Translations under genes and position numbers: made by a program
Assembly: GCA_030840805.1 (NCBI GenBank)
Contig: JAVEDU010000013.1
Coordinates: 1-64,000, forward strand
DNA length: 64,000 bases
Source: Actinomycetota bacterium
Lineage (GTDB): Bacteria; Actinomycetota; Actinomycetes; Mycobacteriales; HKI-0501
Reading direction: 5' to 3'
The notes under the pieces: generated by a model
Database searches by the model: none
What the model saw: the letters and a program-made list of their open reading frames with translations, nothing else
What the model was told of the DNA's origin: nothing
Shown: positions 3,201 to 46,662 of the stretch, piece by piece
Layout of the letters: every line of letters begins with the position of its first letter
How positions within the stretch are numbered: position 1 is the stretch's first letter

Positions 3201-4017
3201 CGAGTCCGCCGAGCGCGCCTACTTCGACGGTGACTGGGAGGCGATGCTCGCGGCGGCGGGCGAGTTCCTCGACGGGCGGGACGACGAGACCGCCGACTGG
3301 GACCTGCAGCTGCGCGGGATCCGCGGCTGGATCCGGGTGCTCCGCGGCGAGGATCCCTGCGACACGGTGATGCGGTGCCTGACGGCGGCCCGCCGGTCCG
3401 GGTTCCGGCGGCTGCTCCGGGGCGCGCTCGCCCACGGCGCCCTCTGCCTCGTCCTCCAGGACCGCCCGGAGGAGGCGGCCGGTCTGCTGGCCGAGCTCGC
3501 CCAGAGCTGGCGGGAGGACCCGTCCTGGCCGTCCCGGGAGTGGGTGCCCGCGGCGGCGCACGCCGCGGCGCTGCTCGGCCCGGAGAGCACCGCCGCGATG
3601 CAGGAGATCCTGCGGTCGATCGAGCGCGACACGCTGTGGCGCCGGGCGGCGACGCACCTGCTGGACGGTGCGGCGGCGACCCACCGTGGCGAGCACGCGC
3701 TGGCCGCCCGCCGGTACGCGCAGGCCGTCGAGGTGTACGACGAGATGGGGGATGAGACCGACGCCGCGCTGACCGCCGCCTGGACGCTGCGCGCGCTCGT
3801 CGCGGCCGGCGACCGCGAGTCCGCGCGCGCGTGGCAGGAGCGGGTGCGCACCTTCGCCCGGCGCAACGGCGCCGGTGGGCTCCTGGCCGGGCTGCACGCG
3901 CTGCTGCGTGGGGACGCCGAACCGGGCGCGGACCGCACGATCGTGCTCGACCCGCCCGAGGGGGGCGCGGCGACCGGACCCCCTCAGTCGTCGTCGAGGC
4001 CCGCCTCGATCGCGTAG
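283..4017 (+). CDS. Zinc-ribbon / class III nucleotide cyclase / AAA-ATPase / TPR regulator
   Basis: This 1244-residue multidomain signalling protein has, in order: a double zinc ribbon (C50/C53, C64/C67, C75/C78, C89/C92); a class III adenylate/guanylate cyclase domain at about 105-285; an AAA/STAND-type ATPase with Walker A (GSPGAGKS, 333-340) and Walker B (LVIEDLQWAD, about 455-464); then about 700 residues of helical TPR-like repeats. Both metal-binding aspartates (D118 in LFVDL, D162 in KYIGD), the base-reading lysine (K158) and transition-state residues N235/R239 (NTASR) are present, so cyclase activity is plausible. Substrate (ATP or GTP) and ligand are unknown. The first 45 residues look unconstrained and the purine-rich GGGGAGG is only two bases from ATG 283, but I see no better in-frame start. 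The last 34 bases overlap the convergent response regulator. Confidence 0.85.
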   Translation: MTVHIATRPGRTSSRSVQFLAKSRGFLPRCDVGQRSDCQDKRSRGIDTYCVHCAAPARDHHRFCGVCGSALHIRCPRCRTLVEPGLRFCTSCGAEVGAPRAAVAHHEERRTVTILFVDLIGFTALAERLDPEDVRDLQATYFRTASRIIRTHGGVVEKYIGDAVMAIYGAPVSGEHDAFRAVRTGLELQRVLDGQAAATEGRLRARVGIATGEALVDLDAIRDRGQALVTGDVVNTASRLQALAPAGGVLVNGATRRATAGSVRYDEQLPVQPEGKASTVEVWLAREMLRDRLGLDAVDDWPVVGREHELELLTQTLVRCVRDRVPQLVSIVGSPGAGKSRLLRELFRRVDATPELVVRWRSGRCMPYGENGAFGPLAEVVKSHAGILDTDDARTARARLVAALDCLVDAEEVPRLTDTVAPLVGLPGVTVTPDEAEASWHRVILAFTRQLPAVLVIEDLQWADPALLRFLAGAVEAAEGLPLLVICTHRPELLERDPGWAGVRARTLTVNVGPLPTGDMQRLLTLLLDGAPPPPPLSERLVGLAGGNPLYAQEFVRMLREQGRLVRVGDTWTLDPQADLSTPETVQSLVASRLDLLSRDDRAVVQAAAVVGAHLWPGAVAALVDVPVAEAENSLRRLVAKDLLAERPGSRMGGHAEYVFRHAIIRQIAYSRLPRAVRAGHHHRVADWLDGLTGERPAVLVETLARHRTAALNLARTLRWDTTPYEEPARRTLVAAAHQAYRLHSLDAALQYVDQALALWPDSHEVPERRRAELLRSQVRFLRDCDGFYREGGVKELEDLAGVLRAEQDLPQAAAAYTQLGQVEWMRTEKDAARAHLRRALDLFADLPDSEAKAEAWAEWARLHMLDFRRDEAVLAAGTASGIARRLGLREVEANAMITAATARYLAGEPAGLPDLEEAVEYCRRHRLPSLRRAILNLSTVLQEEGDLRRSHQLERESRHVHGGRKSLISNFSESAERAYFDGDWEAMLAAAGEFLDGRDDETADWDLQLRGIRGWIRVLRGEDPCDTVMRCLTAARRSGFRRLLRGALAHGALCLVLQDRPEEAAGLLAELAQSWREDPSWPSREWVPAAAHAAALLGPESTAAMQEILRSIERDTLWRRAATHLLDGAAATHRGEHALAARRYAQAVEVYDEMGDETDAALTAAWTLRALVAAGDRESARAWQERVRTFARRNGAGGLLAGLHALLRGDAEPGADRTIVLDPPEGGAATGPPQSSSRPASIA

Positions 4018-4616
4018 CGGACCAGCCCGGCGCGGTTGCGCACCTGGAGCTTGCCCATCGCGTTCTGGACGTGGTTCTGCACGGTGCGATGGGACAGCCC
4101 GAGGCGCGCCGCCACCTGCTTGGCGGTCAGGCCCTTCGCGACCAGCCGGAGCACCTCGGTCTCCCGGTCGGTGAGCCTCGGCGGGTCACCGGCGGCGGGC
4201 TCGGTGGCGATCCGCCGGTACTCCCCCAGCAGCAGCCCGGCCAGGCCCGCGGTGAACGTGGCCTCGCCCGCCGCCGTGCGGCGTACCGCGCCGAGCAGCT
4301 CCCCGGCGCCGGCCGACTTCAGCAGGTAGCCCGTCGCGCCCGCCTTCACGGCCTCCAGCACGTCGCCCGCCTCCCCGCTCGCGGACAGCACCAGCACCCG
4401 GGTGGCCGGGAGTGCGGCGACGATCCGGCGGGTCGCCTCCACGCCGGACAGCTCCGGGAGGTGGAGGTCCATCACGACGACCTCGGGCCGGACGGCCGTG
4501 GCGATCCGCACGGCGGCGACGCCGTCGGGCGCCGTGGCGACCACGTCCAGCCCGGCCTCGCCGAGGTCCCGGGCGACCGCGTCGCGCCACATCGGGTGGT
4601 CGTCGACGACCATCAC
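3984..4616 (-). CDS. NarL/FixJ-family response regulator
   Basis: About 210 residues. An N-terminal receiver domain has the acidic pair in VVDDHP, phospho-acceptor Asp in VVVMDLHLPE, and Lys in YLLKSAG. A C-terminal LuxR-type helix-turn-helix follows (LTDRETEVLRLVAKGL, then SHRTVQNHVQ). It should act as a DNA-binding output of the adjacent kinase. The start is GTG 4616 or the next codon, ATG 4613; the kinase frame ends 13 bases upstream, so the genes are likely translationally coupled. Its last 34 bases overlap the end of the cyclase gene on the other strand. Because the partner kinase is interrupted, its phosphorylation source is uncertain. Confidence 0.9.
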   Translation of the reverse strand: MMVVDDHPMWRDAVARDLGEAGLDVVATAPDGVAAVRIATAVRPEVVVMDLHLPELSGVEATRRIVAALPATRVLVLSASGEAGDVLEAVKAGATGYLLKSAGAGELLGAVRRTAAGEATFTAGLAGLLLGEYRRIATEPAAGDPPRLTDRETEVLRLVAKGLTAKQVAARLGLSHRTVQNHVQNAMGKLQVRNRAGLVRYAIEAGLDDD

Positions 4617-4629
4617 CCGGAGCGACGTC

Positions 4630-5745
4630 TCACCGGCGGGGCACACGCAGCTCCACCTCCGTACCCTCGCCGGGCGCGCTGACGATCTCGGCGCTGCCGC
4701 CGAGGTCCCGCAGCCGTCCCAGCACGGACTGCGCCACGCCGAGCCGTCCCGCCGCGGCGGCGGCCGCCAGCCGGCCCGGCGCGATCCCCGGGCCGTCGTC
4801 GCGCACGGTGACCACCACCTGCGACCCGGTGTCCTCGACCAGCACCCAGGCCTCCGCTTCCGGGCCGACGTGGCGGGCGACGTTGTGCAGCGCGGCGCCG
4901 ACCGCCGCCGCCAGCTCGGCGGCGCGGGTGGCCGGGAGCAGCACTGCCGTGGCGGGGGCCGCCAGGTGCACGCGCGGGGACGGGTCGGCGAGGAGGACAC
5001 GCAGGTCGACCTGGCCGTCGTACCGGGGCGCGGACAGCCGGGACGTCATCAGCGCGCGCAGCGCGACCTCCTGCTCGCCGGCCAGCCGGGCCAGCTCGGC
5101 GCCCTCCCCGCCCAGCTCCGGGCCGCGGCGCTGGACCAGCGCGAGCACCTGGAGCACGCCGTCGTGGATGTGCCGGCCGAGCCGCTAGCGTTCCGCGGTC
5201 GCGGCCTGCATCCGCACACCCTCGGCGAGGGTGCGCTCGGCCCGCCGGCCCAGCGCCGCGACGTAGCCGACCACCGCCCCGGCGACGAACAGCAGGACGA
5301 TGTTGTTCACGGTGAGGTCGCTGGCGCCGCCGCGCTGGACCATGTTCGCGAGGCTGACCAGGGCCGCCGCGGCGAGGCCGCCGGCCACCCCCCAGGCGAG
5401 GCCCCACGCCAGCACCACGGAGGCCGACCACACCATCGGTACGGTGGCCTCGCCGGCCACGATCCGCGCCGGTGACTCCACCAGCACGGTCGCGCCGATC
5501 GCGAGGAGCGTGATCACCGCGTCGGTGGCCAGGAGCGGCGTCCGCCACCGGGTGGCCCGGGGGTACGCCCAGATCGACACGCCGCTCCAGGCCGCCATCA
5601 GCGCGAGCGTGGCCACCAGGGCGCCCGGGCCGGCCACGTTCGGGAGGTCGTACAGGTTGGCCCCCACCGCGTAGGCGAGGGTCAGCAGCCGGAACACCGC
5701 CACGGCCCGCCACAGCGTGACCTCCAGCGTGCCGCCCGGGGTCAC
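4630..5745 (-). pseudogene. Sensor histidine kinase (MacS-like) interrupted by an in-frame TAG
   Basis: The frame from GTG 5745 encodes a membrane sensor of about six hydrophobic segments (residues 1-186) that stops at TAG 5187-5185. The same frame then continues without a shift into RLGRHIHDGVLQVLALV, the phospho-acceptor H-box, and a HATPase_c domain with ALHNVARH and DDGPGIAP, ending at 4630. In relatives the interrupted codon is usually Glu or Gln (inferred from family pattern ER-E/Q-RLARHIHDG), so one base change explains the stop. GTG 5157 could restart translation, but only after the catalytic His (5166-5164). The start overlaps the plsC stop as GTGA, so the pair is coupled. This could be a true null allele, a sequencing error, or a suppressed stop. 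Confidence 0.85.
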
Positions 5746-6470
5746 GCTGCCGCGGCCCCGCTGGACGCCGGGGCCGGATCGGGCGCCGCCGGGCCGGCCG
5801 CCTGGGCCTTCACCTTCGCGGCGTAGACATCGACGTACTCCTGGCCGGACAGCTCCATCAGCTCGTACATGATCTCGTCGGTCATCGACCGCTCGACGAA
5901 CCGGTCACCGGCCAGCCCCTCGTACCGGCTGAAGTCGAGCGGGTGGCCGATCTTCATCCGGACCCGCTTGATCCGCGGCATGAGCGTGCCGGGCGGCTGG
6001 ATCTCGTGGGTGTTGATCATCGCGCAGGGGACGACGACCGCACCCGTCTGCAGCGCGAGCCGGGCCACGCCGGTCTTGCCCCGGTACAGCCGGCCGTCCG
6101 GCGAGCGGGTGCCCTCCGGGTAGATGCCGACGATGTCGCCGAGGTCGAGGATGCGCTGGAGCGTGGTCAGGGCGGACTTGGCCGCGGAGCCGGACGCCCG
6201 ATCGATCGGCACCTGGCCCACGCCGCTGAAGAACAGCTTCGACAGGAATCCCTTGATGCCGGGCGAGTTGAAGTACTCCGCCTTGGCGGGGAACGTCACC
6301 TTCCGGCCCACCATCAGCGGCAGGAAGATCGAGTCGGAGAACGACAGGTGGTTGCTCGCCAGGATCGCCGGACCGGAGGTCGGGATGTTCTCCAGACCCT
6401 CCACCTTCGGGCGGAAGAGCAACCGCACCCACGGTCCGATCAGGATGTGCTTGCACATCCAATAGAACAC
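5742..6470 (-). CDS. plsC: 1-acyl-sn-glycerol-3-phosphate acyltransferase (PlsC family)
   Basis: A 242-residue lysophospholipid acyltransferase that would transfer an acyl chain to lysophosphatidate at the inner membrane face to give phosphatidate. The HX4D catalytic motif is NHLSFSD (H41, D46) and the substrate-binding motif is YPEGTRSPDG (E119). GTG 6470 is preferred because AGGAGG lies five bases upstream; a longer frame to 6590 adds an unconserved arginine-rich leader. Its stop overlaps the start of the interrupted kinase (GTGA). Several paralogues are usual in actinomycetes, so the lipid substrate is not certain. Confidence 0.9.
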   Translation of the reverse strand: MFYWMCKHILIGPWVRLLFRPKVEGLENIPTSGPAILASNHLSFSDSIFLPLMVGRKVTFPAKAEYFNSPGIKGFLSKLFFSGVGQVPIDRASGSAAKSALTTLQRILDLGDIVGIYPEGTRSPDGRLYRGKTGVARLALQTGAVVVPCAMINTHEIQPPGTLMPRIKRVRMKIGHPLDFSRYEGLAGDRFVERSMTDEIMYELMELSGQEYVDVYAAKVKAQAAGPAAPDPAPASSGAAAA

Positions 6471-45009: not shown

Positions 45010-46662
45010 GTGGAGGCAGACGTCATCGTGGTGGGCGGCGGCCTCGCGGGGCTCGTGGCGACGGCCGAGCTGGCCGCCGCGGGGCGGCGGGTCCTGCTGC
45101 TCGACCAGGAGTCCGAGGGCAGCCTCGGCGGGCAGGCGCACTGGTCGCTCGGCGGCCTGTTCCTGGTCGACTCCCCCGAGCAGCGCCGGATGGGCGTGCG
45201 GGACTCCGTGGACCTGGCGATACAGGACTGGCTCGGCACGGCGGGCTTCGACCGCGACCGCGAGGACCACTGGCCGCGGCAGTGGGCACGCGCGTACGTC
45301 GAGTTCGCCGCCGGGGAGAAGCGCTCCTGGCTGCACGGGCTCGGGATGCGGTTCTTCCCGGTGGTGGGCTGGGCGGAGCGCGGCGGGTCCCTGGCGACCG
45401 GCCAGGGCAACTCGGTCCCCCGCTTCCACATCACCTGGGGCACCGGCCCCGGCGTCGTCGCCCCGTTCGAGCGCCGGGTGCGGGAGGCCGCGGAGCGGGG
45501 GCTGGTGACGTTCGGTTTCCGGCACCGGGTGGACGAGCTGACCACGACCGGCGGCGTGGTGGACGGCGTGCGCGGCACCGTGCTGGAGCCCAGCTCCGCG
45601 GCCCGCGGCCGCCCGACGTCCCGGGTGGCCGCCGGCGAGTTCGCGTACCGGGCCCAGGCCGTCGTCGTCGCCTCCGGCGGCATCGGCGGTAACCCCGACC
45701 TCGTCCGGCAGAACTGGCCCGCCCGGCTCGGGTCCCCGCCGGAGCGGATGCTGACCGGCGTCCCCGCCTACGTCGACGGGCGGATGCTGGCGATCACCGA
45801 GGAGGCCGGCGGGCACCTCGTCAACCGTGACCGGATGTGGCACTACACCGAGGGCATCACGAACTGGGACCCGATCTGGCCGGGGCACGGCATCCGGATC
45901 CTGCCCGGCCCGTCGTCGCTCTGGTTCGACGCCACCGGTCGGCGGCTGCCGGTCCCGCTGTTCCCCGGGTTCGACACCCTCGGCACGCTGGAGCACATCA
46001 CCCGCACGGGACACGACCACACGTGGTTCGTGCTGAACCAGAGGATCATCGAGCGCGAGTTCGCCCTGTCCGGCTCCGAGCAGAACCCGGACCTGACCGG
46101 CCGGAGCGTGCGGCAGGTGCTCAGGCGTGCCCTGCCGGGCGCACCGGGGCCGGTGGAGGCGTTCAAGCGGCACGGCGCCGACTTCGTGGTGGCCGACCGT
46201 CTCGGCGAGCTGGTGGCCGGGATGAACCGGCTCACCGACCGTCCGCTGCTCGACGCCGACTGCCTGGAGCGGCAGATCGTCGCCCGGGACCGCGAGCTGG
46301 CCAACCCGTTCACCAAGGACCTGCAGGTGACCGCGATCCACGGCGCGCGCCGGTACCGCGGCGACCGCCTGGTCCGGGTCGCCACCCCGCACCGGATGCT
46401 GGACCCGAAGGCCCGCCCGCTCATCGCGGTGAAGCTGCACATCCTGACGCGCAAGACGCTCGGCGGCCTGGAGACCGATCTGTCGGGGCGGGTGCTGCGC
46501 GCGGACGGCTCACCGCTGCCCGGCGTGTACGCGGCCGGGGAGGTCGCCGGGTTCGGCGGCGGCGGGATGCACGGGTACCGCTCGTTGGAGGGGACGTTCC
46601 TGGGCGGGTGTCTGTTCTCCGGGCGGCAGGCGGGTCGCGCCGCCGCCCGGAGTACAGGCTGA
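45010..46662 (+). CDS. FAD-dependent dehydrogenase (3-ketosteroid dehydrogenase-like)
   Basis: 550 residues of the FAD_binding_2 family. The Rossmann dinucleotide site is VVGGGLAGLVATAELAAAG with the ribose-binding Glu/Asp in LLLDQE; the second FAD contact is in AAGEVAGFGGGGMHGYRSLEG. The length and C-terminal FGGGGMHG block fit actinobacterial KstD-like and Rv0785-like proteins, but no catalytic steroid-binding Tyr can be assigned with confidence, so substrate is open. GTG 45010 follows GAGGGG; it is divergent from and probably regulated by the PucR protein. Confidence 0.8.
   Translation: MEADVIVVGGGLAGLVATAELAAAGRRVLLLDQESEGSLGGQAHWSLGGLFLVDSPEQRRMGVRDSVDLAIQDWLGTAGFDRDREDHWPRQWARAYVEFAAGEKRSWLHGLGMRFFPVVGWAERGGSLATGQGNSVPRFHITWGTGPGVVAPFERRVREAAERGLVTFGFRHRVDELTTTGGVVDGVRGTVLEPSSAARGRPTSRVAAGEFAYRAQAVVVASGGIGGNPDLVRQNWPARLGSPPERMLTGVPAYVDGRMLAITEEAGGHLVNRDRMWHYTEGITNWDPIWPGHGIRILPGPSSLWFDATGRRLPVPLFPGFDTLGTLEHITRTGHDHTWFVLNQRIIEREFALSGSEQNPDLTGRSVRQVLRRALPGAPGPVEAFKRHGADFVVADRLGELVAGMNRLTDRPLLDADCLERQIVARDRELANPFTKDLQVTAIHGARRYRGDRLVRVATPHRMLDPKARPLIAVKLHILTRKTLGGLETDLSGRVLRADGSPLPGVYAAGEVAGFGGGGMHGYRSLEGTFLGGCLFSGRQAGRAAARSTG

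Follow-up and report, generated by a model that had tools for sequence, protein, structure and literature searches.

A plsC-macS-macR cluster with an in-frame stop codon in the kinase gene

The window, by which we mean the whole 64,000-nucleotide stretch of DNA analysed here, carries on its minus strand a plsC-like acyltransferase gene, a sensor histidine kinase gene and a response regulator gene (Table 1). The kinase frame starts at GTG 5745, ends at TGA 4632-4630 and contains a single internal stop, an amber codon (TAG, 5187-5185, minus strand) that was read from the window sequence and represents MacS codon 187. The surrounding codons on the minus strand are ...GCG GAA CGC TAG CGG CTC GGC CGG CAC ATC CAC GAC GGC GTG..., and those following the TAG translate as RLGRHIHDGV. 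The phospho-acceptor histidine of the HD motif is encoded seven codons past the TAG (5166-5164, MacS residue 194). No common start codon (ATG, GTG or TTG) is present in frame between the TAG and this histidine; the first one, GTG 5157, is located 27 nt after the TAG and beyond the histidine codon. A sequence-only reading of this region had described a kinase frame that is intact on either side of the TAG without a shift, the motif RLGRHIHDG directly after it, and a restart at GTG 5157 that would yield a protein without the phospho-acceptor histidine. The single stop, the collinearity of both halves on the family profile (see below), the translation and the position of the first common start agree with this description.

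Table 1. Features of the interrupted kinase gene and its neighbours (positions in the window).
Feature	Position	Strand	Evidence
NarL/LuxR-type response regulator, MacR-like, with Response_reg (PF00072) and GerE (PF00196)	3984..4646	-	profile matches
MacS C-terminal half, with H-box (HIHDG) and HATPase_c	4630..5184	-	HATPase_c 1.1e-11; NF047322 positions 185-367
GTG, first common in-frame start past the TAG, without Shine-Dalgarno	5155..5157	-	duplex energy against anti-SD
Phospho-acceptor His codon, HD motif	5164..5166	-	translation; HisKA_3 partial match 185-205; conserved column
In-frame TAG, MacS codon 187	5185..5187	-	sequence; Glu/Asp in 89/96 other homologous loci
MacS N-terminal half, 186 codons ahead of the TAG, with the membrane sensor region (DUF5931, PF19354)	5188..5745	-	PF19354 5.4e-32; NF047322 positions 3-183
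plsC-like acyltransferase, upstream of the kinase; TGA stop and kinase GTG overlap as GTGA	5742..6470	-	sequence, ORF table

Read through the TAG, the frame scores 431.2 bits against the NCBIfam profile for the MacS sensor histidine kinase (NF047322, 367 positions), for which the curated whole-protein cut-off is 300 bits. Scored singly, the halves reach 130.2 and 278.1 bits, both below this cut-off. The N-terminal half matches profile positions 3-183 and the C-terminal half positions 185-367; thus, exactly one profile position is lost. The GC content at third codon positions is 0.978 upstream and 0.962 downstream of the TAG, and codon-position GC is coding-like on either side. Because the read-through frame gives a full-length MacS, each half fits its own part of the profile and the composition is coding-like, the split frame is not just two ORFs that happen to lie end to end. 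By its profile matches, the interrupted gene is a MacS-family sensor histidine kinase gene that is otherwise intact. The DUF5931 sensor region (PF19354, 5.4e-32) and an adjoining NarL/LuxR-type regulator, both expected of a MacS, were found, and the single frame that should join sensor, H-box and HATPase is broken by the TAG at codon 187. The locus deserves a flag in annotation, as a gene caller will give two partial kinases at 4630-5745.

The regulator gene probably starts at GTG 4646, in which case it overlaps the kinase end by 17 nt, and its product is 57-80% identical (mostly 60-80%) to the regulators adjoining MacS in relatives. Only one DUF5931 gene is found in the whole genome, the interrupted macS, so that the genome has no intact second MacS. 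Eight HisKA_3 kinases are encoded elsewhere.

The interrupted gene shows no other sign of decay

Of the columns conserved at 90% or more, the C-terminal half retains 65/66, which is better than 33 of the 52 non-redundant relatives; at 95% or more, all 44 columns are retained. Apart from codon 187, the window MacS shows just three differences from the 90% consensus, A115G, A176G and D287H, and A115G and D287H are also seen in relatives. Judged by these positions, macS has undergone no further decay beyond the TAG, and the lesion is therefore either fresh or an error.

Codon 187 and gene order in relatives

We read codon 187 in 97 homologous loci, a count that includes a few loci overlapping the same gene, and a stop was found in the window only. 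The other 96 loci have 78 Glu (51 GAG, 27 GAA), 11 Asp, 6 Ala (all in distant kinases) and 1 Thr. All four MacS copies of the two other genomes of the family, two in each, have a Glu codon (GAG, GAG, GAA and GAA). The ancestral codon had been proposed to be Glu or Gln; Glu is favoured, as it occurs in 78 of the 96 loci and Gln in none. Reading this codon in relatives had also been suggested as a check: all 96 loci have a sense codon, and none of the loci compared carries a TAG at codon 187 or has halves split there. Among the relatives listed from a search across 299 genomes of the order, none has an internal stop. The most parsimonious original event suggested by this comparison is a single substitution in a Glu codon.

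Of 73 relative loci whose kinase is full-length, a regulator lies near MacS in 67 and plsC beside it in at least 27, both lower bounds because many of these loci have flanks of 1.5 kb only. The nearest full-length relative of the window MacS is less than 60% identical.

A relative from the same family (G001, C1:2063915-2066633) carries a tandem pair of MacS genes flanked by plsC and the regulator, against one MacS gene in the window genome. In Fodinicola feengrottensis (NZ_WOTO01000065.1) and in G002 (C72:16217-18513) both tandem MacS copies appear in pieces that lie in differing frames, which suggests frameshifts. In G002 these are likely to be assembly errors, since this genome is only 74% complete.

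Mutation, sequencing error or recoding

We consider it probable that the TAG is genuine and arose by recent nonsense mutation of macS in its plsC-macS-macR cluster, and that this mutation makes MacS null and leaves MacR an orphan. Given the codon usage of this genome, TAG would be the outcome of approximately 70% of random nonsense changes (GAG to TAG alone accounts for 13-23%), so that the amber codon needs no special cause. It is possible, if less probable, that macS is intact in the population and that the TAG entered the consensus through a sequencing or assembly error, or stems from a minority strain. The assembly, a 4.46 Mb draft split into 111 contigs and possibly metagenome-derived, is 95.18% complete with 1.3% contamination; in such a draft a single base, in an allele known from one genome, may have been miscalled in the consensus or may come from a minority allele. 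The lack of a second lesion and the retention of nearly all conserved positions downstream are exactly what an error predicts. In addition, the step from a Glu codon to TAG requires a G-to-T transversion, a known artefact of library oxidation. Against an error speaks that no genuine internal stop was found in 99 ABC and 40 HATPase domain matches of the same genome, two large families; thus, the assembly is not riddled with errors. In a composition-based screen for in-gene stops, covering 1.92 Mb of the 4.46 Mb, only one clear stop that is not recoded turned up, and such point errors are accordingly rare here. However, we roughly estimate that, on ordinary assumptions, real nonsense changes and consensus errors are both expected on the order of once per 2 Mb, and since these numbers are similar, the low genome-wide count does not separate mutation from error.

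The screen also bears on whether the TAG is read through by a suppressor tRNA, local amber recoding or leaky termination, giving a full-length kinase with residue 187 substituted. It returned 38 stops flanked on either side by sequence that looks coding. Most of these read, on visual inspection and without a check of each one, as normal junctions between genes or as antisense shadows. A gene is clearly interrupted in two cases: by the TAG in macS and by a TGA in a formate dehydrogenase gene, at its selenocysteine site. Finding the latter demonstrates that the screen can detect recoded stops. That this genome recodes another stop, with a tRNA-Sec and a SelB match present, would fit readthrough of the TAG, as would the downstream half without decay. 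But none of the 42 Rfam-called tRNAs of the genome, with anticodons read by ARAGORN, has a CUA anticodon; TAG is a normal terminator that ends 94 of 558 long coding ORFs; no other TAG clearly interrupts a gene in the 1.92 Mb; and no relative has a TAG at codon 187. Amber recoding is therefore disfavoured and readthrough of any kind very unlikely. More doubtful still is a functional role for the TAG as a regulated site of readthrough or suppression that would set the amount of full-length MacS relative to the sensor stub. Least probable of all is a split kinase assembled from two separately translated halves: reinitiation at GTG 5157, 27 nt past the stop, is conceivable, but this GTG has no Shine-Dalgarno, a restart there would omit the phospho-acceptor histidine, and in no relative are the halves split at codon 187. 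The interrupted macS is thus either an artefact or a commonplace disrupted member of a known gene family, and not a novel biological device. The two explanations offered by the sequence-only reading, a recent single-base nonsense change or a sequencing error, are still the only well-supported ones; the MacS/MacR identity, the absence of other decay and the test against recoding go beyond it.

Several observations were made alongside. The formate dehydrogenase belongs to an actinobacterial family (NF041513, 1947 bits) and is encoded at L199:12993-16448 (plus strand), with the in-frame TGA at L199 position 13725 (G000:C77:73725). The tRNA-Sec (L200:4909-5002) and a SelB match over the cut-off (G000:C77:86342-87118) are located within approximately 13 kb of it, the SelB match at a distance of about 10-13 kb. 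ARAGORN called a tRNA-Arg (CCT) at window positions 45870-45944 (plus strand) that is absent from the Rfam tRNA search of the genome. A second TAG in a HATPase domain (G000:C4:66294-66569) was considered as support for recoding and rejected, as this stop is the natural C-terminus of the protein.

Predicted consequences for MacS and MacR

If the nonsense mutation is real, a one-base change at the Glu codon would cut MacS to a membrane sensor stub of 186 amino acids, truncated just ahead of the dimerisation/phospho-acceptor helix. The duplex of the region before GTG 5157 with the anti-Shine-Dalgarno sequence has an energy of -2.1 kcal/mol (random median -5.0), that is, this start has no Shine-Dalgarno. 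The downstream half would probably not be restarted efficiently and would lack the phospho-acceptor histidine even if it were. GTG 4646 of the regulator is preceded by its own, strong Shine-Dalgarno (-14.2 kcal/mol), so that synthesis of MacR should continue independently of the kinase stop. As the genome has no second DUF5931 kinase, MacR would be left without its cognate kinase and would either stay unphosphorylated or receive phosphate from other donors. The earlier proposal of an orphan sensor half and a regulator lacking its own kinase thus holds if the base is right. The strain would then be a naturally occurring kinase-null mutant, in a two-component system conserved among actinobacteria, whose regulator can still be expressed, and it would serve as a modest natural experiment on MacR in the absence of MacS.

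The MacR consensus, which we take to be TGAGTACNNGTACTCA, has no match within the window. Exact GAGTACNNGTACTC cores occur twice in the genome regions examined, one inside a sucA-like coding sequence and the other upstream of a large membrane-protein gene. The latter is an exact GAGTACNNGTACTC palindrome (L227:5068-5081, G000:C110) that resembles the presumed consensus and is located just past a UDP-glucose dehydrogenase-like gene, approximately 35 nt upstream of the large polytopic membrane-protein gene. The membrane-protein gene is a possible MacR target.

Comparison with known MacS/MacR systems

In Streptomyces coelicolor MacS/MacR (SCO2121/SCO2120) governs morphogenetic membrane proteins and antibiotic production (PMC9739842, PMC10345050), and MacR is classed as NarL type (PMC9739842). 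The window locus resembles this pair, a likeness that is profile-based: the kinase, when read through, scores above the MacS equivalog cut-off and is followed by a NarL-type regulator. It differs from the S. coelicolor pair in that the kinase frame is broken by the TAG before the H-box, and the window has no match to the presumed MacR consensus. The TAG does not alter the current picture of how MacS/MacR-type systems operate. The gene order is shared with plsC-macS-macR clusters of Mycobacteriales and other Actinomycetes (e.g., L026-L031 and L063), in which it is common where the flanks allow it to be seen. In contrast to the window, the kinases in these clusters of relatives are intact and have Glu or Asp at codon 187.
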